Virus record (IMG/VR): IMGVR_UViG_3300044825_000703
Coordinates: 1-60,040 of that record
Reading direction: 5' to 3' (one strand)
Source: a virus
DNA: 60,040 nt
Below the pieces are notes generated by a model. It ran no database searches. It saw only the letters and a program-made list of their open reading frames with translations, and was not told where the DNA came from. This document shows positions 3,074 through 28,308 of the stretch, piece after piece. The stretch's first letter is position 1, and each line of letters begins with the position of its first letter. The position numbers and the translations under genes are program-made.

Positions 3074-6000
3074 ATGCGCTTCGTTCCGCTTGATGCTGCT
3101 GAACAGTCGGTCACTCAATTTCGCTTCGTTCCACTTGATCAACCGGCTCCGGCAAAGGAGCCGCAGGTAATTGACCGTGCGCCAGAAGAGTTCCCGCCTG
3201 GTATTGCCAGTTCTAGCCCTATGCGGCTACCGAGAGATTTCTCAATCCCGGTAGAGACGCCTCCGGTCGCTGGGCTTCAGCCCGTTCAAGAGACGGAACC
3301 CATTCTGCCTCCAGAGGCCAGCATTTCGTCGTTCGTCAAAGGACGAGAGCCTGAGCTTACCGAGTACACGCCAACCCTCATGCAGCGGATTGCAGAGTTG
3401 CTGCCGAGCAACAGAGCAAGGGCGCTGAACGAATACATTGCACGTCAGATTGCCCGTGAACGCGGCATTCCTATTGAACAGGTCTACACCGAAGCGGGCG
3501 GCGCTCGGCCGATCTTCAACCCTGAAGGACGACCTCCAGTCACTGCGGCTGTTGAGGCGGCTGAAGTTGTTGCCAAGGAGATCCCAGAGATCCCGGCTGG
3601 TGCAGCCACGGCGGCATTGCGAGCGTATCGTGCGGGCGAGATTCCGGTTGCCGATCAATCATGGGTTGACCGTGCGATCACCGCGATGAACCCTGAGCGG
3701 CAGGGCAAACCGGACCCGAACTATCAAGCCTTCCAAGGTCTCGGGCCGTCTATTGGATTCAGTCTAGCCAACTTGGTTGCATCCGTTGTCGCTGGGTCTG
3801 CGGCCACCACTGTGACCGGCGGCAATCCTGTTGCCGGTGTTGCGGCCGGAATGGCGGCATCAGGGACTGTTGCTTATCGAGCAAGCAAGGATGAGTTCCT
3901 TGAGCGGGTCAAGAAGAAGCTCGATAAAGAATCAACAAACTTGTATGGCAAGCCACTGGGCAAAGATGACTGGGAGGCCGCAAAGGAAGAGTTTGACTCT
4001 GCTGCAACGCAATACGGCCTTTGGGAAGCCATTCCTGAAGCGGTCAGCAATGCGATCTTCCTGAAGGCGTTTTCCGGTCCTGCCAAGGGGATGTCGCAGT
4101 CGATGCTTGCGTCTGTTGGACAGAAAGCGGGTGCTCTCGCTGCGGAACAGGCTACCGAGACCGTCACGGCGCTCGGCCAGAACGCAGCCGAACGCAAGGC
4201 CAAGCTCACCGAACAAGAGCTGTCTGTTGCTGATGCCTTCCGTCAACAGTTCGTGCAAACCTTGTTGACCAGCGGCGTCATGGCTGGTGGCATGAAAGGC
4301 AAAGAGCTTGCCACTGATTTCTACCGGACCTATGTGGAGCCTCGCGTAGATCCGGCATCCGCGCTGGGTCGGGCAATTCAGGCCGATATTGAAGCAGTCG
4401 CTTTCAGTCCAGAGGCAATTCAACGGGAAGCGGCGTTCTTGATGGCCACAGGTGCTCGGCCACAAGGCTTGGCAGAGCTTGCTCGTGCAGTTGCTATACC
4501 TCCTGCCACCCCAGAAGAGCCAGAAGCCCCCGAGGCTCCTGAAGCGCCTGTTGTACGGGCTGAACCCACGCTGCCTGAAGTTACCCCCGAAGCGCCGGGC
4601 CGAGCTGAACCAACGCTTGAAACCGAGCCTACGGTTGACGGCCAGGCTGAACCTACTCTCCCGGCCGAAGAAGAGCCTGTTGTTCTCCGTCCTACCCGAC
4701 GAGGACCGCCGGTTGAAGAAGTCATTGAGGACGTTCCAGCCATTCCCGGAATGCCGAGCATTGAAGAACCGTCCTATGTGTTCACGCCGATTGATGGAGG
4801 TGTAACGCCTGTTGCACCAACGGCTGAAACGCCGCCTGCTGAGCCTTTAGTCACCCCTACCTCCGCCGCAGCAGCGGTTCCCGTAGAGCCGACTGTTCCA
4901 ACCTTCGTAAAAGCCAAGGAAACAGAACCCGAGCCGCCGAACCTTGAAGCGCAGGGTCTTGCTACGGTTGAAGTCCCACTCAACCAGCTCTCGCTATCCA
5001 AAGATGTTCCGCAGTTCAAGCTCGGGGCGACGGCCAAAGGCGTTGTTGAGCCTTTGGGTGGCAAGTTTGAGCGGACTGGTGTTGCACCGATTCAGGTCTG
5101 GCGCAGGCTGGACGGATCGCTTGAGGTGATCTCTGGTCGGCATCGGTTTGACTTGGCCCAGCGTAGTGGTGAGAAGACCATCCCGGCCCAGATTCACGAT
5201 GAAGCCCAAGGGTTTACCCGTGATCACGCAGCGGTACTCGACGCTGAACTAAACATTCGAGACGGACAAGGAAAGGCAAAAGACTATGTCAACTACTTCA
5301 AAGCGAGTGGCATCGACCGCGAGACAGCCGAGTCAAGAGGACTACTGGCAAGGGCGACGGGCAAGCGGGCTTACACAATCGCAACTCAAGGCAGTGATGA
5401 GCTCCTTGCCGCCCTTCGTGCCGACGCAATCCCAGAAGAAGCCGCGTTCTACATCGCGCTGAACGCTCCGAACGACTCTCGGATTCAGGCGGTCGGCATC
5501 AATGCCATGAACAATGGCAAGACGATGAACATGGCAGTCAACACCATGCAGGCCGTCCAGGCACTTGCGGGTGAGCAGGGTGTGACTGTAGACATGTTTG
5601 GGCTTGACGACAGTGCGATCCGCGAAGCTGAAGCGATGGCGAAGATCGCCTCACGCAAACAGCGAGAACTCCAAACTCGGCTATCAGCGATTACCGGTGC
5701 CTCAAAGAATCCGGCTCTTGCCAAGGCAGAAGGCATCGACATCAAGGATCCCGAAGCAGTCAAGCGTCGCATTGAAGAACTAAGGCAACAGAAGGCTGCG
5801 TGGGAGAACTGGCAGACCAATTCCGATTTGATTGCCGAGGTGCGTGCTGAACGCGGCACACCACCCCCGGAGCTTCAGCTTACCGGCGAAACGGAAGCAG
5901 AGATCAGGGCTCGTGAAGAAGCGGAACAAGCCGGTGCCACCGAAGCCGAGAAGAAGCGCCAAGCTGATCTTGCTCGGGATATGTTCGCGCTCGAAGGTGA

Positions 6001-9000
6001 AGCAGCCCCGACTGAGGTGAAGCCGCCTGAGCAAGCGGGCATGTTTGAGGAAACCCCGGTTATTGAACCAGTCGCGGAGCAAGCAGTGGAAGCTCCGGCC
6101 CCAGAAGCCCCCGCTGTTGCGCCCGAGATCGAGAGACTACAAAAGACCTACGACGACGCAAAGGCGGCACTAGACGCACTCGGCCCAGAGCCTCCCAAGC
6201 CTCGTACCGAGCGTCAGTTCTTCGGCAAGAATGGCCGAGAAGGTGCGGATCCCGAGACCGTCCGTCGATACGACGAGGGAGTGAAGAAGTACAACTCGTG
6301 GAAGCGTAAGTACGGCAAGCTCAAGAAGGACGAGGTTGATGCGAGTAACGCCTTGTTCCGTGCAACACAACCCACGAAGGCACAGGTCAAAGAAGAAACC
6401 AAACTCGTTGAAGACACAACCAAGGCCGTCCTTGAAGCCAAGCTCAATGACTTCATGGTGGGCGACCAAGTAAGGTTTGGTAATACTCCCGGAGTCGTGA
6501 TTGGTCTTGAAGGCGACTACGTTCGCTTCCGTCCTGATGCAGCTCGCTCGCCCAAAGCGTATCAGCGAGTGCCCAAGACATCCCTCACGATGGTCGCTCG
6601 ACCCGATACAACCAGTGAGGTTTCGTATTCAAAAGGCCAGGACAGCAAGTTTGGAGAAGAAGCGGGTCAACTGAATGCCGATATGGGCGGCTTGATCCAG
6701 TTGCTTGGCGCAAACATGTATGCGTCCAACTTGGCCGACGTCACCGTCAAGGAGCTGCTGCAAAACGCCTTCGATGCGGTCAAAGGTGCTGTGTCTTCCA
6801 AAAAAGGACCAGCGCTGTACAAGACCGGATCTATTGAGATCAAAGTTGACTCCGGTACGAGAACGATCTCAATCAAAGACAACGCTCGTGGCATGACGCC
6901 AGAGATTGTCCGTGATGCGTTCTTTACTATCGCCGGGTCAGAGAAGTCTGATCTTGATCCTAGCGAGCGCAGCGGTGGTCTTGGTCTAGCCAAGATGGGC
7001 TTCATGCTTGGATCGGATCGGCTTCAGCTTGATACGGTTCGAGACGGAGTTCGTATCAAGGTTGATACAACGGCCAAAGACATTGCAAACAACAACTTCA
7101 AGATTGTTAAGTCGCCCGCTCCAAAGAAAGAACACGGCACTACAGTGACCGTTACGATTCCTGAAAACTACACCGATCCAAGGACCGGAGAAGCAAAACC
7201 GATCTGGTTTCCGTGGAGTGTTCGTAGCATTTCGCCTCTGACCAAACCGTTGATTGGCCCAGTGAAGGTTGACGTTGACATCAATGGTGACAAGCAAACC
7301 CTTCCGGTAGGGACCAACTTTCCAGAAGACAAATATCAATCCTTCAAAGCAAACTTTGATTGGGGTTCAGCCGACATATACTTTGGAATCGAACGTAAGT
7401 CAGATACTTGGCAGACAAACCATCAAGTTCTTTCAAGCGGCGTTTATCAGTTTGATCAAGAATTCACGCTGAACAAAGAAAAGATTCCATACGACATCAT
7501 TGTCAATGTAAAACCAAATGTCGATGCAAAACACCCCGACTATCCGTTTGAGAACAGTCGAGAGCGGTTTAAGGGTAGGCTGAAAAACGACATTGGTTCG
7601 TTGACCAATTATCTCGGCACGATTGCCCGTGGCTATGAGGCTGCTGGACTACAGGAGTCTTTCAAGGGAATCGTCTCCATGCCTCGTGTCGAGGCTGGCG
7701 CTGACATAGCAGGGATGGCGGATAAGCTCAAGAAGAGCTTTGGCACACAGGGCGCTCAAGCCCCGTCAGAACTCAAGCCGTTGCCTAAAGAAGTCACCAT
7801 CACGCCTACTGAGGTGCGAGATACCAGAACTCAACAGGTTTTGGTAGACACCCAAAAAGCAGCAGAAAAAGAGAAGGCGTCCACATTCAAGGGTGAAAAG
7901 GTCAAAGAGTCCAAGGACTTTATGATCGACCTGAAGCAAGATCCAAAACTACCAATCTTCCACAACAACACCAACGTAGACTTCGTTGAGGTTGGTAGGG
8001 ACTATGGCGACCCTGAGCAGTTCTTTGCTGAACTCGGGACGCTGATGGTTGAGATGAAAGAGGATCTTGCCAAGAGCGGCATCTACGGCTACGAGAAGCT
8101 GTCACCTGACAACCTGTTCTTTGCTGGCATCTCGATTGACAAGGACTACGGTGGCGTACACATCAAGGTTCCGTACAAGGCCGTCTTGATCAATCCGTTC
8201 TATGACTGGGGTGCAAGAACCCTGTTTGGCGTTCGAGGCAACATCTTGAACACGATGATCCATGAGATCGCCCATACGGGTTCGATGGATCACGGCGTGG
8301 CTCACAACGGCCAGATGATCAAGGTCGAGCAGTACCTGAACGACGAAGGCTTGATGGATTACTATCGTGACGCGATCCTGGATGTGCTGCGTCGCCACGA
8401 GTCAACATTCACTGCAATGAGGGATGCTTATGGACGATCTACAACAAAGAACACTGCAAAGTCTCTTGAGGATGTCCAGAAAGACGCCGCCGCAGCATCG
8501 GCTAGAGGAGATCGAGGCCGGGGTGCGGACGAGGCTGGGACTGTACCGGCAGGAGAAGGACAAGGAAGGGGCGAAGGTGTACGAGCAACTGCTGCCAGTC
8601 GTGCTGAAGGCGAAGTCGGCGGCCGACCTGGAGAAGCTGGTCGCGTAGAGCCTGCCGACCAAGCAGAGCGCGAGCGTGTTGACGAGCTCCTAGATGAGTT
8701 CAACCGTCCCAAGGTGACTGGCCGAGAGCTGGAGACGGTTAAGTCTAGGCTGATGCCCAGCACATCGTCTATCCGATCCACCTTCAAGGAGATGGTTGAT
8801 AACCCGTCCCAAGCGGTCAACATGATCTTCGGGCCGTTGAATCGAGGGATTGCTCAGGCTCGGAACTATCTGTTCTTCTCCGGGGCCGGACTGGAAGAAG
8901 CCGATGCCAAGCGGTATGCAAATCAGGTCAGGACCGCCAACGATGAGGCCACGGCTACTTTGGCCCTCGACAACATGCTCCACGGCAACGGTATTGCCGT

Positions 9001-11482
9001 TCAGTTCCTGATGCAGGGTGGGCTTCGGTACAACCCGGAAACCAAGCGTATCGAAGCGCATCAAGCTGATGGCAGTATGCTCGATGTCTACATAAATGAG
9101 CGTGCGCTGAAGAACAAGCTCGGGGATGAGCGAGGGGCCATGCTGGCCCAGGGTTACTTTGAAGCCAAACGTTCCAAGAACATTCGTGATGAGATGGCCC
9201 AATTAGCCGAGGAGATCGAGGTCCAAAAAGAAGCTCTCGATGACGCCCGTGATCGTCTGCGTGAGCTTAAGAAGGAGAAGGCTGCTGATAGTGCAATCGA
9301 CCGACAACAGAAGGTCGTGGACCGTCTGGCTGATGAGTACAACGAGACCAAGACACAGCTCGATGAAATCGTTCGGATCAACGAAGAAAAGGTGTTGATG
9401 TCTGACGAAGAGATCGAGGCGTTCATTGATCAGGACGCCGTGTATCCCGAGCTTAGAAACATGATGGATGCTTGGATGGCAACCAATCGGCGGCTGCTGG
9501 GCATGATGCGACAAGTTCGCATGATCAGTGAAAAACGCTATAAGCGGCTCATGTCGATCAAGGACTATGTGCCCTGGCAGCGAGTCCAAGATGACGACGT
9601 AGACATTCACTACGTGGGGAATCCTCGGTCGGCTACGAACATCACGAAGGAAAGGGCGTTCAAAAAGGGCAAGGTCGAGCGTGCTGTTGCTTATATCCCA
9701 GACAACATGACGGACAACATCATCCGTCTGACTCAGAGCGTCCTGCGTCAGTACGCCGCTTTAAGGATAGTGGATGAGTACGCCACAAGGGACCCAGAGA
9801 CCGGGAAGATCAAGACCTTTGCCAAGGCAGACAGGAATAAAGGCCGATTCGACTACATCTCTGACGGTCGTCGAGTGGTTGTTGAGGTCAAAGATCCGGT
9901 GATTGCTGAAGCGGTGTATGGCCGGGATTCGGTGGATCTTCGAGCCCCAGAAGCGATTGCTGCGGCCACAAACTTCATGCGCCGGGCCATCACAATTGAC
10001 CCGTTCTTCCAGATGTCTCAGGTCATCAAGGATGCTCCTACTGCGGCCATTGTGACTGGTGTACGGAATCCTTGGGCTTTGATGGGCAGTGTGATGACGT
10101 CCTTTGCTAAGACGGTCGTCAATGCAGACCCTGTGGCAGACATCCTGCGGGCCAACGGTATCGGTGGCTTCCAAGCCATCACGCGGACGCCTGAAGCAGC
10201 GGTGAAACGGAAGAAGGGTCTGGTGAATCGGTCGGTGGGTGCCGCGACTCTGGAGTTGATGGATCACATTGGGGATGCGTCCGACTTCGCAGCCCGTATT
10301 GCGGCCTACAAGCGAACAATGGCTGAGACGGGTGATGAGGCGCTTGCTCTGTATCGAGCAGCTAATGTGATCAACTTCAACCGGCTTGGTTCGTCTGGTG
10401 CGATCAGGACGTTCGTGACCTACGTCAACTTTGCCAATGCCTACCTCCAGTCGATTGATACTCTGTTCACGGCTCTGACTGCACGAGGCGCACGGGGACG
10501 AGATACCAAGAAAGCTCTGGGCATCATGGCGGCAACGGTAGCTCAGCTCACAGCTCTGACCCTGGCATATAGCTGGCTGGTCGGTGGAGATGATGAGTAC
10601 GAGAAGCTGGACGACGCGACCAAGGTTCGTAACTTCTTCATCCCGAAGTCGGTCACTGGAACCGATAGTGGAATCCTGATTCCGATCAACACATCGGCGG
10701 CGTTCATCTTTAAGGCGATGCCTGAGCTGACCTACAACATGTTTGCCAGCCAGGCTACCAAAACGCCGATGGATGCGACTCGGTACAAGAAGGCTGTATC
10801 GGAAGCAGCGGCGGATGCGTTCTTTGGTCCTGAGCCTGTTCCGAGTGCTATCAGGCCGATCATTGAGATCGCCATGAACCGTAGCTTCTTCACCGAGCGC
10901 CCCCTGACCCCGCGCGGAACGGAGACCCTTGAGAAGTTCCAGCAGTTCACGGATCAAACCTCTGAGCTCGGCAAGTTGCTCGGCCAGGCTGGTGGCTTGA
11001 GTCCTATCGAGTGGGATCACTTGATCCGAGGAACCACCGGTGTCGCCGGGATGCTGGCCCAATACGGCTCCAACATGATCGGTGAGTATCTGAACGTCCG
11101 ACCCGAATCAACGGCCAAGCAGTTGCCGGGTGTTGGGAGGTTCATCGCCCCCGAGATTGGTCGCGGTCCTGAAGCTTTGTTCTACGATCTCCATGAAAGG
11201 GTTCGTAAGGCGACAGCAACCTACAAGGACCTGGAAGCAACGGGTCAGTACGAAAAGGCCGAGAAGTTTGATTCTGAGAAGAACCTGCTCATCGACCTGT
11301 CCCGTGAGATGAACCGGACTGAATCTAAGCTCAAGAAGATCAACGCCGAGATCCGAATGCTGTCGAGGGGTCGGGAAGAAGGGACGGCCAAGGAACGTCG
11401 CAGGGAAATCACGGAGCTTCAGAGAGACAAGCAGGAGCTGCTCGACGGGATTGAGATGCTGAGGAAGGAAGCGGGTCTGTAA
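3074..11482 (+). CDS. Giant polyvalent virion protein (ParB-like, GHKL ATPase, metallopeptidase, LPD38-like)
   Basis: 2802 residues. Order seen: FVPLD repeat and ILPPEASISSFVKGR near the N-terminus; a hydrophobic Gly/Ala segment at about 222-270; a Pro/Glu linker at about 470-610; a ParB/Srx-like domain at about 627-750 with ISGRHRFDLA; a helical region; a GHKL (HSP90/MutL-type) ATPase at about 1185-1420 with the N-box KELLQNAFDAV, DNARGMT and GGLGLAKMG; a Zn-peptidase motif HEIAH at 1730-1734; an Arg/Gly/Ala linker at about 1790-1860; a coiled coil at about 2040-2105; and a C-terminal region with NFNRLGSSGAIRTF resembling LPD38 of polyvalent proteins (family knowledge). Such proteins are thought to enter the host with phage DNA and counter or reprogram it; that role is inferred. 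The linker overlaps a convincing out-of-frame gene at 8430, so the protein may be a fusion. Confidence 0.85.
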   Translation: MRFVPLDAAEQSVTQFRFVPLDQPAPAKEPQVIDRAPEEFPPGIASSSPMRLPRDFSIPVETPPVAGLQPVQETEPILPPEASISSFVKGREPELTEYTPTLMQRIAELLPSNRARALNEYIARQIARERGIPIEQVYTEAGGARPIFNPEGRPPVTAAVEAAEVVAKEIPEIPAGAATAALRAYRAGEIPVADQSWVDRAITAMNPERQGKPDPNYQAFQGLGPSIGFSLANLVASVVAGSAATTVTGGNPVAGVAAGMAASGTVAYRASKDEFLERVKKKLDKESTNLYGKPLGKDDWEAAKEEFDSAATQYGLWEAIPEAVSNAIFLKAFSGPAKGMSQSMLASVGQKAGALAAEQATETVTALGQNAAERKAKLTEQELSVADAFRQQFVQTLLTSGVMAGGMKGKELATDFYRTYVEPRVDPASALGRAIQADIEAVAFSPEAIQREAAFLMATGARPQGLAELARAVAIPPATPEEPEAPEAPEAPVVRAEPTLPEVTPEAPGRAEPTLETEPTVDGQAEPTLPAEEEPVVLRPTRRGPPVEEVIEDVPAIPGMPSIEEPSYVFTPIDGGVTPVAPTAETPPAEPLVTPTSAAAAVPVEPTVPTFVKAKETEPEPPNLEAQGLATVEVPLNQLSLSKDVPQFKLGATAKGVVEPLGGKFERTGVAPIQVWRRLDGSLEVISGRHRFDLAQRSGEKTIPAQIHDEAQGFTRDHAAVLDAELNIRDGQGKAKDYVNYFKASGIDRETAESRGLLARATGKRAYTIATQGSDELLAALRADAIPEEAAFYIALNAPNDSRIQAVGINAMNNGKTMNMAVNTMQAVQALAGEQGVTVDMFGLDDSAIREAEAMAKIASRKQRELQTRLSAITGASKNPALAKAEGIDIKDPEAVKRRIEELRQQKAAWENWQTNSDLIAEVRAERGTPPPELQLTGETEAEIRAREEAEQAGATEAEKKRQADLARDMFALEGEAAPTEVKPPEQAGMFEETPVIEPVAEQAVEAPAPEAPAVAPEIERLQKTYDDAKAALDALGPEPPKPRTERQFFGKNGREGADPETVRRYDEGVKKYNSWKRKYGKLKKDEVDASNALFRATQPTKAQVKEETKLVEDTTKAVLEAKLNDFMVGDQVRFGNTPGVVIGLEGDYVRFRPDAARSPKAYQRVPKTSLTMVARPDTTSEVSYSKGQDSKFGEEAGQLNADMGGLIQLLGANMYASNLADVTVKELLQNAFDAVKGAVSSKKGPALYKTGSIEIKVDSGTRTISIKDNARGMTPEIVRDAFFTIAGSEKSDLDPSERSGGLGLAKMGFMLGSDRLQLDTVRDGVRIKVDTTAKDIANNNFKIVKSPAPKKEHGTTVTVTIPENYTDPRTGEAKPIWFPWSVRSISPLTKPLIGPVKVDVDINGDKQTLPVGTNFPEDKYQSFKANFDWGSADIYFGIERKSDTWQTNHQVLSSGVYQFDQEFTLNKEKIPYDIIVNVKPNVDAKHPDYPFENSRERFKGRLKNDIGSLTNYLGTIARGYEAAGLQESFKGIVSMPRVEAGADIAGMADKLKKSFGTQGAQAPSELKPLPKEVTITPTEVRDTRTQQVLVDTQKAAEKEKASTFKGEKVKESKDFMIDLKQDPKLPIFHNNTNVDFVEVGRDYGDPEQFFAELGTLMVEMKEDLAKSGIYGYEKLSPDNLFFAGISIDKDYGGVHIKVPYKAVLINPFYDWGARTLFGVRGNILNTMIHEIAHTGSMDHGVAHNGQMIKVEQYLNDEGLMDYYRDAILDVLRRHESTFTAMRDAYGRSTTKNTAKSLEDVQKDAAAASARGDRGRGADEAGTVPAGEGQGRGEGVRATAASRAEGEVGGRPGEAGRVEPADQAERERVDELLDEFNRPKVTGRELETVKSRLMPSTSSIRSTFKEMVDNPSQAVNMIFGPLNRGIAQARNYLFFSGAGLEEADAKRYANQVRTANDEATATLALDNMLHGNGIAVQFLMQGGLRYNPETKRIEAHQADGSMLDVYINERALKNKLGDERGAMLAQGYFEAKRSKNIRDEMAQLAEEIEVQKEALDDARDRLRELKKEKAADSAIDRQQKVVDRLADEYNETKTQLDEIVRINEEKVLMSDEEIEAFIDQDAVYPELRNMMDAWMATNRRLLGMMRQVRMISEKRYKRLMSIKDYVPWQRVQDDDVDIHYVGNPRSATNITKERAFKKGKVERAVAYIPDNMTDNIIRLTQSVLRQYAALRIVDEYATRDPETGKIKTFAKADRNKGRFDYISDGRRVVVEVKDPVIAEAVYGRDSVDLRAPEAIAAATNFMRRAITIDPFFQMSQVIKDAPTAAIVTGVRNPWALMGSVMTSFAKTVVNADPVADILRANGIGGFQAITRTPEAAVKRKKGLVNRSVGAATLELMDHIGDASDFAARIAAYKRTMAETGDEALALYRAANVINFNRLGSSGAIRTFVTYVNFANAYLQSIDTLFTALTARGARGRDTKKALGIMAATVAQLTALTLAYSWLVGGDDEYEKLDDATKVRNFFIPKSVTGTDSGILIPINTSAAFIFKAMPELTYNMFASQATKTPMDATRYKKAVSEAAADAFFGPEPVPSAIRPIIEIAMNRSFFTERPLTPRGTETLEKFQQFTDQTSELGKLLGQAGGLSPIEWDHLIRGTTGVAGMLAQYGSNMIGEYLNVRPESTAKQLPGVGRFIAPEIGRGPEALFYDLHERVRKATATYKDLEATGQYEKAEKFDSEKNLLIDLSREMNRTESKLKKINAEIRMLSRGREEGTAKERRREITELQRDKQELLDGIEMLRKEAGL
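8430..8648 (+). CDS. Nested 72-residue protein in the +1 frame of the polyvalent gene
   Basis: ATG at 8430 is preceded by GAGGG at 8419-8423 with 6 bases of spacing. The product is charged and helical (LEEIEAGVRTRLGLYRQEKD in its middle). From about codon 14 nearly every third base is G or C (CTG, GAG, AAG, GTG, GCC), while in the giant ORF's frame the same stretch has mostly A/T third bases and reads as low-complexity Arg/Gly/Ala/Glu. This is the signature of the nested frame being the one under codon selection. Function unknown. The alternative is that the giant ORF became fused by reading through a formerly separate small gene. Confidence 0.6.
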   Translation: MDDLQQRTLQSLLRMSRKTPPQHRLEEIEAGVRTRLGLYRQEKDKEGAKVYEQLLPVVLKAKSAADLEKLVA

Positions 11483-12956: not shown

Positions 12957-13469
12957 GTTGCGTCGCCTTTGCTTTTGCCCTCGCAACCATTGGAAGTGAC
13001 CTGTCGTGTGTTGGAAGTGACGTTTGGCCTTGCGTGTTCGCGGAATGTAAGTTTTTGCTCGCTTTTCCGCTGGCCCGCTTCCTCTTCGGCCAAACTCGGG
13101 CAAAAGTCAGCCTAAGGGTGAGTGTTAGTTTATAACATCCCACCACCCGACTTTTTCCCGGTAAACCCGGTATGCGTCTCAGGGCAACTTATAACGCACT
13201 CAGGAGCTTTTCACCGTTGCCGGTGCCTACCACGGCCCCCTGCCAGTCCGCACTCCCCGATGCCATTCCGCCCCGGATGCGTCCTGAAACTCACCGCTTG
13301 CGCCTGGTTCTTCTGTGCGCTTACCTTGACAGCCAGAACGTTGAAGGATCCGACGCTTTCCGGCCTACCCCGACTCTGCGGCATCCACCGCTGCGGGTTC
13401 CTCCAGTAGCCCCCTACCATACCTAGCCCGATAGACTCTGCCAAGACCCAGCTACCTGCTGGGGAGGTT
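12957..13469. other. 513-base stretch without a convincing gene
   Basis: ORFs of 60-95 codons exist on both strands but none reads like a protein. Visible here: TTGGAAGTGAC twice (12990-13000, 13011-13021), 21 bases apart, operator-like; TTATAAC twice (near 13129 and 13189); CCCGGTA twice near 13160; and a small stem CCCAGC/GCTGGG (13447-13463) just after the stop of the next leftward gene. It probably contains the promoter of the leftward rusA unit, but no clean -35/-10 pair was found. Confidence 0.5.
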
Positions 13470-13742
13470 TTACTTCATAGGCTCATCCACCAACTTGCCG
13501 CGCTCAATACCGACTCGGTGTTTGATCTCGACGGCGTAATAGGTGAAGTCAAGATGGCCGTGGCTTACAGCGTTGGCTGCAAACTCACGGCACTTCTCGA
13601 TAGCCGTATCCATGCTTTCATGAAGGTACTTGAACTTTGCCGAGTGCCCAGAAGGAGAACGCATAAACACTGCGTACTTGGGATCGGTCGCTTCGTGCAG
13701 TTGATGCACGGCCTTCTTACGAGAACGAAATGCGCCTTCCAT
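13470..13742 (-). CDS. Small protein downstream of the structured RNA
   Basis: 90 residues, MEGAFRSRKKAVHQLHEATD..., basic N-terminus, ending YYAVEIKHRVGIERGKLVDEP. AAAGGAC lies 6 bases before the ATG. No family recognised. Its ATG is about 30 bases beyond the strong terminator of the RNA at 13774-13906, so it may be controlled by readthrough (attenuation). Confidence 0.7.
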   Translation of the reverse strand: MEGAFRSRKKAVHQLHEATDPKYAVFMRSPSGHSAKFKYLHESMDTAIEKCREFAANAVSHGHLDFTYYAVEIKHRVGIERGKLVDEPMK

Positions 13743-13773
13743 GACTGTCCTTTGTTAGGGCGTGGAAGAGGCG

Positions 13774-13906
13774 AAAAAAAACCTTCTAGAATGACCCCGG
13801 AGAGAGAACCCTTTCGGGCTACCCCATTCGGGGTCGGAGTCGTTCTAGAAGGCTCTTAGTCAGTCTCTCTCACTAACTATGCTTCGCGTTGGTTTCGACA
13901 CCAACG
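13774..13906 (-). ncRNA. Structured RNA (sRNA or attenuator leader) ending in a U8 terminator
   Basis: Read leftward from a near-consensus promoter. Helices: P1 CGTTGGT/ACCAACG with a 6-base loop; P2 TAGTTAGT/ACTGACTA (one G-U) with loop GAGAGAG; P3 CCTTCTAGAA/TTCTAGAAGG enclosing P4 ACCCC/GGGGT and P5 CCC/GGG capped by GAAA. The P2 loop plus the next base (GAGAGAGA) is an exact complement of TCTCTCTC inside P3, so a pseudoknot is possible. GACCCCG can pair either locally (P4) or with CGGGGTC across the domain, giving two exclusive states. Eight U follow P3. No coding potential seen. Not a family I recognise. Confidence 0.65.
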
Positions 13907-13912
13907 GGATGA

Positions 13913-13941
13913 ATCATACCCACCCATCAACGACCCGTCAA
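13913..13941 (-). promoter_or_regulatory. Sigma-70-type promoter for the structured RNA
   Basis: On the minus strand TTGACG (13941-13936), a 17-base spacer, then TATGAT (13918-13913). An A/T-rich tract (13951-13966), part of the 97-bp repeat, sits just upstream like an UP element. Predicted start is near 13906. Confidence 0.65.
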
Positions 13942-13950
13942 GATGGGGAC

Positions 13951-14047
13951 AAAAAACTTGAAATTTAGAAAACGCCTCTGTAAGTCATTGAAAACAAACC
14001 ACAAAAGAGTGCAACATTGTTGCACCCCTACGACGAGTGTGGTTATT
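13951..14047. repeat. 97-bp inverted repeat, copy A
   Basis: Aligns without gaps to the reverse complement of 30146-30242; by hand count about 72 of 97 bases agree. Best-kept parts are AAAAAACTTGAAATTTA, AAGTCATTGA, the palindrome GTGCAACATTGTTGCAC followed by CCCTACG, and GGTTATT at the edge. It lies between the endolysin stop and the structured-RNA promoter. Confidence 0.85.
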
Positions 14048-25696: not shown

Positions 25697-25848
25697 GTTG
25701 ACTCCGTTGGCAGTGGAGCTTTGATGGTGACAGCTTTTTTCTGGCATGTCAACACATTGTTCCCATGCCATCTCATGTGTGGTATTGTATCGCTAGGTGC
25801 TCACAGCACCGGCCCAAGCCGAGGGGATCTCGGTCGTTAGGAGAGATG
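25697..25848. promoter_or_regulatory. Divergent promoter region between leftward and rightward early units
   Basis: 152 bases between two divergent starts. Stem-forming GGTGCT/AGCACC near 25797-25811 and CCGAG/CTCGG before the helicase ATG would fold in its leader. AACACATTGTT (25751-25761) resembles the core of the palindrome in the 97-bp repeats. A minus-strand TTGACA (25750-25745) has no good -10; a minus-strand TACAAT lies near 25790. Control signals must be here, but exact promoters cannot be assigned. Confidence 0.5.
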
Positions 25849-28308
25849 ATGGATCTTCAACTTAGACCGCACCAGATGAAGTGCGTTGAGGAGCTTCGAG
25901 AGGGGTTCCGAGCTGGTCATAGGGTGCAATTGCTCTATGCCCCAACAGGATTCGGGAAGTGCTTAGGTCGAGACACGCCCGTGATGATGGCGGACGGCAC
26001 GATCAAGGCCGTTCAGGATGTCGTGACGGGCGACTGTGTGATGTCTCCCACCGGAGAGCCGAGGCGTGTGTATGGCACGACCAAGGGCGTCTCAATGCTC
26101 TATCGGGTTACGCCCACCAAAGGATCTCCATACGTCGTCAATGACGAGCACATCTTGTCTCTGAGAATGACTCAGACGGGCGAGATCGTGAACGTATCCA
26201 TCAAGGATTACTTCTCTCGCAGTGCGACCTTCAGGCATGAGGCTAAGGGTTGGCGAGCAGATGCGCTGCCCTTCGAGGAGAGAGAGCTTCTCATCGATCC
26301 GTACATCTTCGGCGTCTGGCTTGGGGATGGGACTTCAAAAGAACCGGCCATCACAACGGCTGACGAAGAGGTTGTCAAAGCCATAGAGGAGTATTCGGCC
26401 CGTACAGGAGGCCGAGTGAGTGTATCTCCTGGCCGGGGGTGCAACACCTATCGGCTGTGCGGTGGGTTGGTTCTGGATGCCTTGAGAGAGCTTAATGTTC
26501 TCGGTAACAAGCACATCCCGCATGAGTACAAAACGGCATCTATCGAGCAGCGGCTCCAGTTGCTCGCCGGGATTGTTGATGCTGACGGGTATCTCAATAG
26601 ATCCGGCTATGAGCTTACCTTCGTGCATGAAAGGCTGGCCGAGGATGTGGCGTTTTTGGCGAGATCGTTAGGCTTTGCGGCCTACGTCAAGCCGTGCAAG
26701 AAAGGGATTCGTTCTACTGGATTCGAGGGTACGTACTACAGAATCTCTATCAGTGGACACGCGGATAAGATTCCTTGCAAGGTAGCACGTCGCAAGGCTA
26801 AGCCAAGAAAGATCAACAAGAACGTCTTGAACGTCGGCATCACTGTCGAGAGGATTGGCGAGGGCGAATACTTCGGGTTCGCTATTGACGGACCGGACAA
26901 GCTCTTCTTGCTTGGTGACTTTACGGTCACACACAATACCGAAGTAGCGATCTATCTCATGAAAGCCGCCGCAGAGAAAATGTCTCGGACTGCGATCATT
27001 ATGGATCGTATCGTGCTGGTGGATCAGACGAGCGACCGGCTAACCCGGTACGCTATCCCTCATGGCGTCTTGCAGGCAAGCCACTGGAACTATGCACCGA
27101 AAAGATTGATCCAAGTCTGTTCGGCGCAAACGCTTGAGAGCCGCGACGAGTTTCCAGAGTTCTCACTGGCAATCATTGATGAGTGTCATTTGGCCCGCAA
27201 GTCAATTACGAACTTCATACGCGAACGTCCAAACATGAAGGTTATCGGCTTGACGGCCACACCGTTTACCAAGGGCCTCGGGCAGATCTATGAGCATGTT
27301 GTCACGGGTGCGAGCACAGAGTTCCTGGTGACAAAGGAATGGCTTGCCCCTCTGAAGGTCTACATCGCCAAGCAGATCGACATGACGGGTGCGAAGAAGG
27401 TGGCAGGCGAATGGTCTCAGGATGTGGCTACAGAGCGCGGCATGAAGCTCACGGGCGACATTGTGGCCGAGTGGATCAAGAAGACCCACGAGATATTTGA
27501 CGGGCCTCGTAAGACGATTGTGTTCTGTTCTGGCGTCGCTCACGGTGCAGACCTTGCCCAGCAGTTCGCCAAGCAGGGCTATCAATTCATCCCGATCTCG
27601 TATAAAGACAACGACGAGTTCAAAAGGGAAGCAATTGCTGACTTTTCCAAGCCGGATACTAAGATCAATGGGCTGATTGCAACTGACATCCTGACCCGAG
27701 GGTTTGATGTGCCGGATGTGATGATCGGCGTATCGGCGAGGCCATTCTCAAAGTCTTTGTCCAGTCACATCCAGCAGCTTGGCCGCGTGATGAGATCGCA
27801 TCCCTCGAAGAAGTTCGGTGTGTGGCTTTGTCACAGCGGGAACTTCATGCGGTTTATGGATACCTGGGATGACGTCTATTCCAACGGCGTTCACGAATTG
27901 AAGGATGATGCTGAGAAGCCTCGACGGGAGCCGACTGATGCCGAGAAGTACAAGTCCAAGTGCCCCAAATGCGGCTTGCTCTGGGTCAAAGGTGCGTTGA
28001 CGTGTGCGGGGTGTGGTTACGAGAAGAAGCCCCCGAGGAGTCAAATCGAGTCTGTAGCGGGCCGAATGGAAGAGCTGGCACGTTGGCACAAGGCAAACGA
28101 TTGGAACCCGCAGAAGTTCTATAGCGAGCTTCTGTGGTACGCCCAGCAGAAGAACTACAACCCCAACTGGGCAGCACACAAGTTCAAAGAGAAATTCGGC
28201 AACTGGCCGAGGGGTTTGAGCACGCAGCCTTCGCCGCCGTCGGCTCAGACCGTGGGATGGATTCGTTCGAGAATGATTGCATATGCCAAATCGAGGAGAT
28301 TCGCGTGA
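25849..28308 (+). CDS. SF2 DNA helicase split by an intein
   Basis: 819 residues as translated; about 493 after removal of the 326-residue intein. Start ATG 25849 (AGGAG 5 bases upstream). Motifs: Q-like LRPHQ; Walker A APTGFGK-T, with the intein between Lys and Thr; Walker B IIDECHLARK; motif III GLTATPF; motif V IATDILTRGFDVPDV; motif VI QQLGRVMRS; and a C-terminal zinc ribbon CPKCG...CAGCG. RecQ/RadD-like SF2 architecture. It probably unwinds the origin or fork for the primase two genes downstream. Activity requires splicing, because the intein interrupts the ATP-binding loop. Confidence 0.9.
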   Translation: MDLQLRPHQMKCVEELREGFRAGHRVQLLYAPTGFGKCLGRDTPVMMADGTIKAVQDVVTGDCVMSPTGEPRRVYGTTKGVSMLYRVTPTKGSPYVVNDEHILSLRMTQTGEIVNVSIKDYFSRSATFRHEAKGWRADALPFEERELLIDPYIFGVWLGDGTSKEPAITTADEEVVKAIEEYSARTGGRVSVSPGRGCNTYRLCGGLVLDALRELNVLGNKHIPHEYKTASIEQRLQLLAGIVDADGYLNRSGYELTFVHERLAEDVAFLARSLGFAAYVKPCKKGIRSTGFEGTYYRISISGHADKIPCKVARRKAKPRKINKNVLNVGITVERIGEGEYFGFAIDGPDKLFLLGDFTVTHNTEVAIYLMKAAAEKMSRTAIIMDRIVLVDQTSDRLTRYAIPHGVLQASHWNYAPKRLIQVCSAQTLESRDEFPEFSLAIIDECHLARKSITNFIRERPNMKVIGLTATPFTKGLGQIYEHVVTGASTEFLVTKEWLAPLKVYIAKQIDMTGAKKVAGEWSQDVATERGMKLTGDIVAEWIKKTHEIFDGPRKTIVFCSGVAHGADLAQQFAKQGYQFIPISYKDNDEFKREAIADFSKPDTKINGLIATDILTRGFDVPDVMIGVSARPFSKSLSSHIQQLGRVMRSHPSKKFGVWLCHSGNFMRFMDTWDDVYSNGVHELKDDAEKPRREPTDAEKYKSKCPKCGLLWVKGALTCAGCGYEKKPPRSQIESVAGRMEELARWHKANDWNPQKFYSELLWYAQQKNYNPNWAAHKFKEKFGNWPRGLSTQPSPPSAQTVGWIRSRMIAYAKSRRFA
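25960..26937 (+). mobile_element. Class 1 intein with intact LAGLIDADG endonuclease
   Basis: 326 residues in the helicase Walker A. It begins Cys (CLGRDTPVMMADG, block A), has block B with HIL, and ends FTVTHN before Thr (Cys1, terminal His-Asn, Thr+1), the standard class 1 set. Both endonuclease motifs look intact: FGVWLGDGT and LLAGIVDADG keep the catalytic Asp residues, so it may still be able to home. Confidence 0.92.

Follow-up and report, generated by a model that had tools for sequence, protein, structure and literature searches.

Introduction

Several described RNA systems resemble parts of the locus reported here. GOLLD and ROOL are phage- or prophage-encoded structured RNAs of unassigned function, often located near tRNAs, and in them a covarying pairing between a loop and a joining strand proved to be an intermolecular kissing bridge (PMC12286853). 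In the phi29-type pRNA, the primary sequence diverges widely among phages while the fold and the loop complementarity are retained (PMC12670572). Type III toxin-antitoxin systems and AbiF are laid out as a promoter, a pseudoknotted or otherwise structured RNA, a terminator, and a promoterless gene (PMC8860590, PMC12373285), and in AbiF the short RNA dominates and the read-through mRNA is minor (PMC12373285). Immediately after its early promoters, phage HK022 encodes the structured put RNAs, which need no phage protein to act (PMC9378689).

The locus considered here lies in IMG/VR record IMGVR_UViG_3300044825_000703, and "the window" refers to the whole stretch analysed, positions 1 to 60,040. 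It encodes RNA-1, which opens a cassette with the order promoter, RNA-1, terminator, optional small gene, and RNA-2; the window has every part. RNA-1 differs from GOLLD and ROOL in its length of ~130 nt and its built-in terminator, and the evidence on it is comparative. RNA-2 is similar to them in style, and one RNA-2 copy (L038) holds a tRNA. The GOLLD model (RF02032) matched RNA-1 or RNA-2 in 0 of 12 records at E<=10, and GOLLD and other Rfam families were ruled out as the identity of these RNAs for want of a match. Like the pRNA, RNA-1 keeps fold and complementarity despite sequence change (PMC12670572), but its fold and place differ, cargo lies behind it, it ends in a terminator, and the phages that carry it have large terminases of the usual type. 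As in type III toxin-antitoxin loci, RNA, terminator, and gene follow one promoter, yet RNA-1 has neither a repeat array nor a toxin-like protein, and its cargo is usually RNA-2, with the gene optional. HK022 put shares with RNA-1 its structured nature and its place immediately after an early phage promoter; put itself is not a terminator, and no common sequence or fold with RNA-1 was detected.

Results

The RNA-1 unit lies on the minus strand and comprises a sigma70 promoter, an RNA of ~130 nt, and a U8 terminator, with the RNA spanning 13906-13774 and transcription predicted to start near 13906. Its features are as follows.

13913..13941 (-): sigma70-like promoter of RNA-1 (TTGACG 13941-13936, 17 nt, TATGAT 13918-13913; 10/12 match)
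13774..13906 (-): RNA-1, window subtype of type A, ~130 nt (from fold, descriptor, and covariance model)
13888..13905 (-): extra 5' hairpin GUUGGUGUCGAAACCAAC, only in the window copy and absent in relatives; resembles a second copy of the P1 hairpin
13859..13877 (-): hairpin P1 (S1: GUUAG/CUGAC), whose loop bears a pseudoknot strand
13864..13871 (-): 5' strand of pseudoknot S2, GAGAGAGA, pairing with 13807-13800 (covariation)
13782..13852 (-): P2 terminator stem (13852-13835 with 13799-13782), enclosing P3, P4, and the 3' pseudoknot strand
13834-13821 (-): P3, inside P2
13820-13807 (-): P4, inside P2
13800..13807 (-): 3' strand of pseudoknot S2, UCUCUCUC, directly 5' of the terminator's 3' arm (covariation)
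13774..13781 (-): U8 tract, intrinsic terminator of RNA-1 (from sequence; U4 to U9 in all relatives)

The segment 13941-13772 folds at -71.5 kcal/mol (z = -4.5), and 0 of 200 shuffles were as stable. It lies outside coding sequence, as the upstream lysozyme frame stops at 14047 and the next gene begins at 13742. The strand GAGAGAGA at 13871-13864 complements UCUCUCUC at 13807-13800 exactly; the terminator forms the base of the fold, and the pseudoknot is compatible with it, so that both can form together. A descriptor that combined a 7-bp pseudoknot with U5 and a terminator stem of 7 bp or more had no other match in the window and none in 40 dinucleotide-shuffled versions, both strands included. 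No Rfam 15 family reached its curated cut-off in the window, and relatives searched against Rfam up to E=1-3 gave only tRNAs in the flanks and weak sub-threshold matches outside RNA-1. The first-pass annotation of this DNA had described a compact, non-coding transcript of about 130 bases and of no known family, with a TTGACG-17-TATGAT promoter, an 8-base complementarity that might form a pseudoknot, and a U8 terminator, and each of these elements is borne out. It had also proposed a covariance search with relatives and a check of homologues for compensatory changes; the former recovers the site and the latter yields such changes in abundance, as described below.

A covariance model built without the window matches the window RNA at 13885-13775 (E=1.8e-17). 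The relatives, all of them uncultivated phages, add a large structured-RNA family from well over 150 viral contigs, with one RNA-1 copy per record and three structural types. In type A, S1 (5 bp), one loop base, and S2 (7 bp) are followed by P2, which encloses one or two hairpins and the 3' strand of S2; this predicted geometry is ideal for an intramolecular H-type pseudoknot. The static fold of P2, P3, and pseudoknot is conserved across type A, and P2 shows two-sided changes in 10 of 17 pairs with 90% of cells paired in the type A alignment. Neither a conserved unpaired or ligand pocket nor a conserved loop sequence able to contact polymerase is visible in type A. Type C follows the logic of type A with a pseudoknot of 10-13 bp. 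A covariance model that includes the window also picks up type C RNAs, which makes it probable that A and C belong to one family. Type B (~150 nt) has the conserved bases UGGUAAC, GGCUUCGUCAA, and GGCAA(A)CCAAGCCYAAAGC, and its pseudoknot is a 6-7 bp pairing between two hairpin loops; it may be homologous to types A and C or only convergent with them. A promoter match of at least 9/12 lies upstream of 77% of type B relatives vs 11% in shuffles. Pattern scans of viral contigs returned at least 120 type B and 44 type C matches, and three further type B matches in genome contigs were judged to be chance in view of their wide spacing and unrelated hosts. The cassette was not found in cultured phages or in plasmids, and two Manatee Spring virome genomes carry it. 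Rfam 15 has no entry for the family and no paper on it was found in the open-access literature, so family and cassette appear to be new, although what the RNA does at the molecular level may turn out to be of a known kind.

Plain MAFFT alignments, whether of type A as a whole or of just the window subtype, set the pseudoknot strands out of register, so that pair counts from the P2 alignment understate this helix and row-by-row tests were used for it. In a swap test, the best pairing of each RNA's own two strands was compared with that of strands exchanged between RNAs. All 29 diverse RNAs compared (type A plus further subtypes) have the pseudoknot, with completely different sequences, and their own-partner pairing amounts to 7.79 bp vs 4.58 bp when swapped (0/20000 permutations); for 84 type B RNAs the values are 6.00 bp vs 4.57 bp (0/10000 permutations). 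The type C pseudoknot measures 10-13 bp in 28 of 29 RNAs, with 99.3% of cells paired and 14 pairs changed on both sides, values of which neither was reached in 500 shuffles (0/500). Its helix shows zero one-sided (G-U) changes, while the type C P2 helix has many G-U pairs. Covariation of this kind indicates that the GAGAGAGA/UCUCUCUC pairing is a true H-type pseudoknot, with the proviso that covariation does not separate intramolecular from intermolecular pairing.

The pairing sequence itself, which we call the barcode, changes fast. Across 124 close pairs of type B RNAs it differs at 0.37 per nt, compared with 0.09 in the stem of the barcode-bearing hairpin, 0.06 in P1, and 0.006-0.015 in the terminator arms; the pairs were selected for similarity outside the barcode, which inflates the contrast and leaves the ranking clear. 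The type B RNAs L038 and L080 differ by a single change outside the barcode and in 3 of 6 pairs inside it, and 93 type B RNAs carry 63 distinct barcodes. Such turnover is what a private pairing under diversifying selection would look like; a more sober alternative is that it may reflect weak constraint on base identity. A link between barcode and kind of RNA-2 was ruled out, as near-identical RNA-1s have different RNA-2s. A trans target within 900 nt on either side was likewise ruled out, as barcode matches there showed no enrichment above chance. Because the fold is invariant while its key pairing differs between phages, RNA self-recognition can be put to a clear test.

Behind the terminator, the window carries a small gene and a second RNA.

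13470..13742 (-): P90, optional cargo gene, 90 aa (ribosome site AAAGGA at 13753-13748)
13179..13439 (-): RNA-2 kind i, conserved structured non-coding RNA (nhmmer E=3.3e-20, profile from 11 other phages)

RNA-2 is a large structured RNA of which at least 10 kinds (clusters) occur among the cassettes, none of them in Rfam; in the window it lies just past P90. The fold energy of the window copy is ordinary (z -0.9), and the case for RNA-2 therefore rests on conservation and covariation, with two-sided changes in 34 of 49 consensus pairs of kind i. RNA-1 lies just upstream of the kind-i motif in 34 of 35 contigs, the exception being L212, where the match is probably chance in coding sequence. 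Kind i was also seen in L041, L042, L054, L207, and others. In L038:1667-1782 (+) a tRNA (Rfam, 33.7 bits) sits inside a longer stem of an RNA-2 of kind ii (GUGAUUGAUGAUGG...CCAUCAUCAAUCAC).

The cargo behind the terminator may be P90, another small gene, or RNA-2 directly, and at most RNA-1 loci RNA-2 follows directly without P90 or any other gene, as in the complete circular virome phage MW202426, where both RNAs lie beside primase and helicase. Directly after the RNA-1 terminator, where the window has P90, L143, L165, and L196 carry members of another small protein family (MLSQKLFLPMSN...), with an RNA-2 of kind iii behind them. For 28 P90 phages besides that of the window, what follows the P90 stop codon aligns to RNA-2 regions of other cassettes: L010, beginning 38 nt past the stop, aligns over 613 nt and at 96% to L178, beginning 15 nt into its region, and the match between L027 and L108 reaches 99%, with only short matches for L033, L034, and L030. 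When P90 is removed, RNA-2 aligns directly to the RNA-1 loci of other phages. P90 is accordingly an insertion between two RNAs. A promoter between terminator and cargo was not found above chance (4.4% vs 4.6% in shuffles), so RNA-2 and P90 rely on read-through or on a transcript begun further upstream. Different phages carry unrelated cargo, its modules exchanging freely in the manner of accessory loci, and many of the cassettes are located in early or replication regions. A single locus thereby opens onto a catalogue of undescribed phage RNAs, with at least 10 kinds of large RNA-2, and gives context to small-gene families such as P90.

P90 starts 30 nt beyond the RNA-1 terminator and has relatives at 37 IMG/VR loci, with 50-81% identity. 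It has no match in Pfam, PHROG, NCBIfam, or PDB and no fold match at E<=0.001, and its predicted model (pLDDT 77) has the order beta-beta-alpha-beta-beta-beta. No prophage or host copy was found in 84,980 species genomes. The family is a highly conserved orphan ending in ...YYAVEIKHRVGIERGK.VDEP. Every P90-family contig with upstream sequence has a promoter, a folded RNA, and a U-tract terminator before the gene, and these RNAs are hardly alike in sequence; in L037 an extended N terminus of the protein leaves the RNA ~290 nt upstream. The type of RNA-1 changes freely beside a P90 that keeps to its 50-81% identity. These comparisons indicate that RNA-1 is not a dedicated leader of P90, because P90 is simply inserted between RNA-1 and RNA-2.

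Discussion

We consider it rather likely that RNA-1 is a phage non-coding RNA forming the first module of a two-RNA cassette, serving as a stable RNA and a leaky leader and perhaps recognising itself. Most transcripts would stop at the terminator and yield a stable RNA of ~130 nt, and a minority would read through and allow expression of P90 and RNA-2. RNA-1 would thus be a product in itself and, as a leaky leader, would also set the ratio. With less assurance, the fast-changing and always self-complementary pairing might let RNA-1 recognise only its own kind, which would serve to build homo-oligomers or to lock the fold privately, like the kissing loops of other phage RNAs; by analogy, GOLLD and ROOL are the best precedent for the barcode. 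Against this, an intramolecular pseudoknot explains the pairing equally well, and RNA-1 could act wholly in trans. A more specific version, in which a barcoded RNA-1 that recognises itself or its own phage controls or partners a modular RNA-2 and the barcodes avoid cross-reaction during co-infection, is possible, though we are inclined to doubt it. If true, this would be a previously undescribed phage system of paired RNAs whose pairing sequences are diversified against co-infecting phages.

The position of RNA-1 before a gene invites two further explanations. It could serve as the antitoxin in a pair of the type III or AbiF kind, binding and silencing the P90 protein, given that the AbiF/ToxIN-like layout of promoter, structured RNA of ~130 nt, terminator, and promoterless gene reached by read-through is present (PMC12373285) and that the P90 family always carries RNA-1. 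Most RNA-1 loci, however, have RNA-2 in place of P90 or any other gene, and the antitoxin reading fits the P90 subset only, because the cargo is mostly another RNA. RNA-1 has no tandem repeats and is a single unit in all aligned members, its type varies freely beside a P90 of 50-81% identity, and P90 is unlike any toxin family by sequence or fold: matches to ToxN, CptN, TenpN, or Abi_2-like proteins were sought in Pfam, NCBIfam, PHROG, PDB, and by fold, and none was obtained. We regard this explanation as quite unlikely. Still less probable, in our view, is a two-state riboswitch or attenuator controlling P90, for which the leader position with its terminator speaks. The first-pass annotation had suggested both a switchable leader of the 90-residue gene and two mutually exclusive pairings of GACCCCG. 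The second pairing, with CGGGGUC, does exist in the window subtype, but it is lost in most other type A relatives, across which it is the static fold that is conserved, and the two-state switch is not upheld. The leader role fails as well, for most relatives lack the gene and, where present, it is an insertion before RNA-2. That pseudoknot and terminator can co-form, that type A has no conserved unpaired pocket, and that the cargo is unrelated between phages also argue against a switch.

Other readings do not involve P90. RNA-1 might be a cis-acting element like put, by which polymerase reads through its own and later terminators; the structured HK022 put RNAs, which are located just after early promoters and need no phage proteins (PMC9378689), and the location of many cassettes in early or replication regions would agree with this. 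The RNA-1 terminator, however, is the base of the fold and not a later signal, and type A offers no conserved loop sequence for contact with polymerase, so that we rate a put-like role as very unlikely. Alternatively, the target of RNA-1 might be the host or a competing phage, on which it would act in trans as a decoy, antisense, or anti-defence RNA, with other accessory factors as its cargo. A stand-alone transcript with a fast-evolving, exposed pairing and freely swapped cargo modules is consistent with such a role. Nevertheless, barcode matches are not enriched in the 900 nt to either side, and both halves of the pairing lie inside RNA-1, leaving no free antisense arm; we consider action in trans unlikely.

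Some further features were seen in the flanks and elsewhere in the window. Upstream of RNA-1 in L005, L208, L209, L217, L234, and others, the recurrent hairpins CAACACGCATGGGGATTGG...CAGTCCCCAGCCGTGTTGG and GTTGGCG...GGGTTAGCGCC...CACTGCTTTATGTGAGCGCCAAC occur; these are possibly a small mobile or regulatory element. Sub-threshold matches to an anti-hemB sRNA lie just upstream of RNA-1 at L010:3674-3750 (+) (28.5 bits) and L008:3726-3807 (+) (22.1 bits). In the window, one open frame of 2802 residues occupies 3074-11482 (+), and a helicase gene at 25765-28308 (+) is split by an intein with Hint and LAGLIDADG domains.
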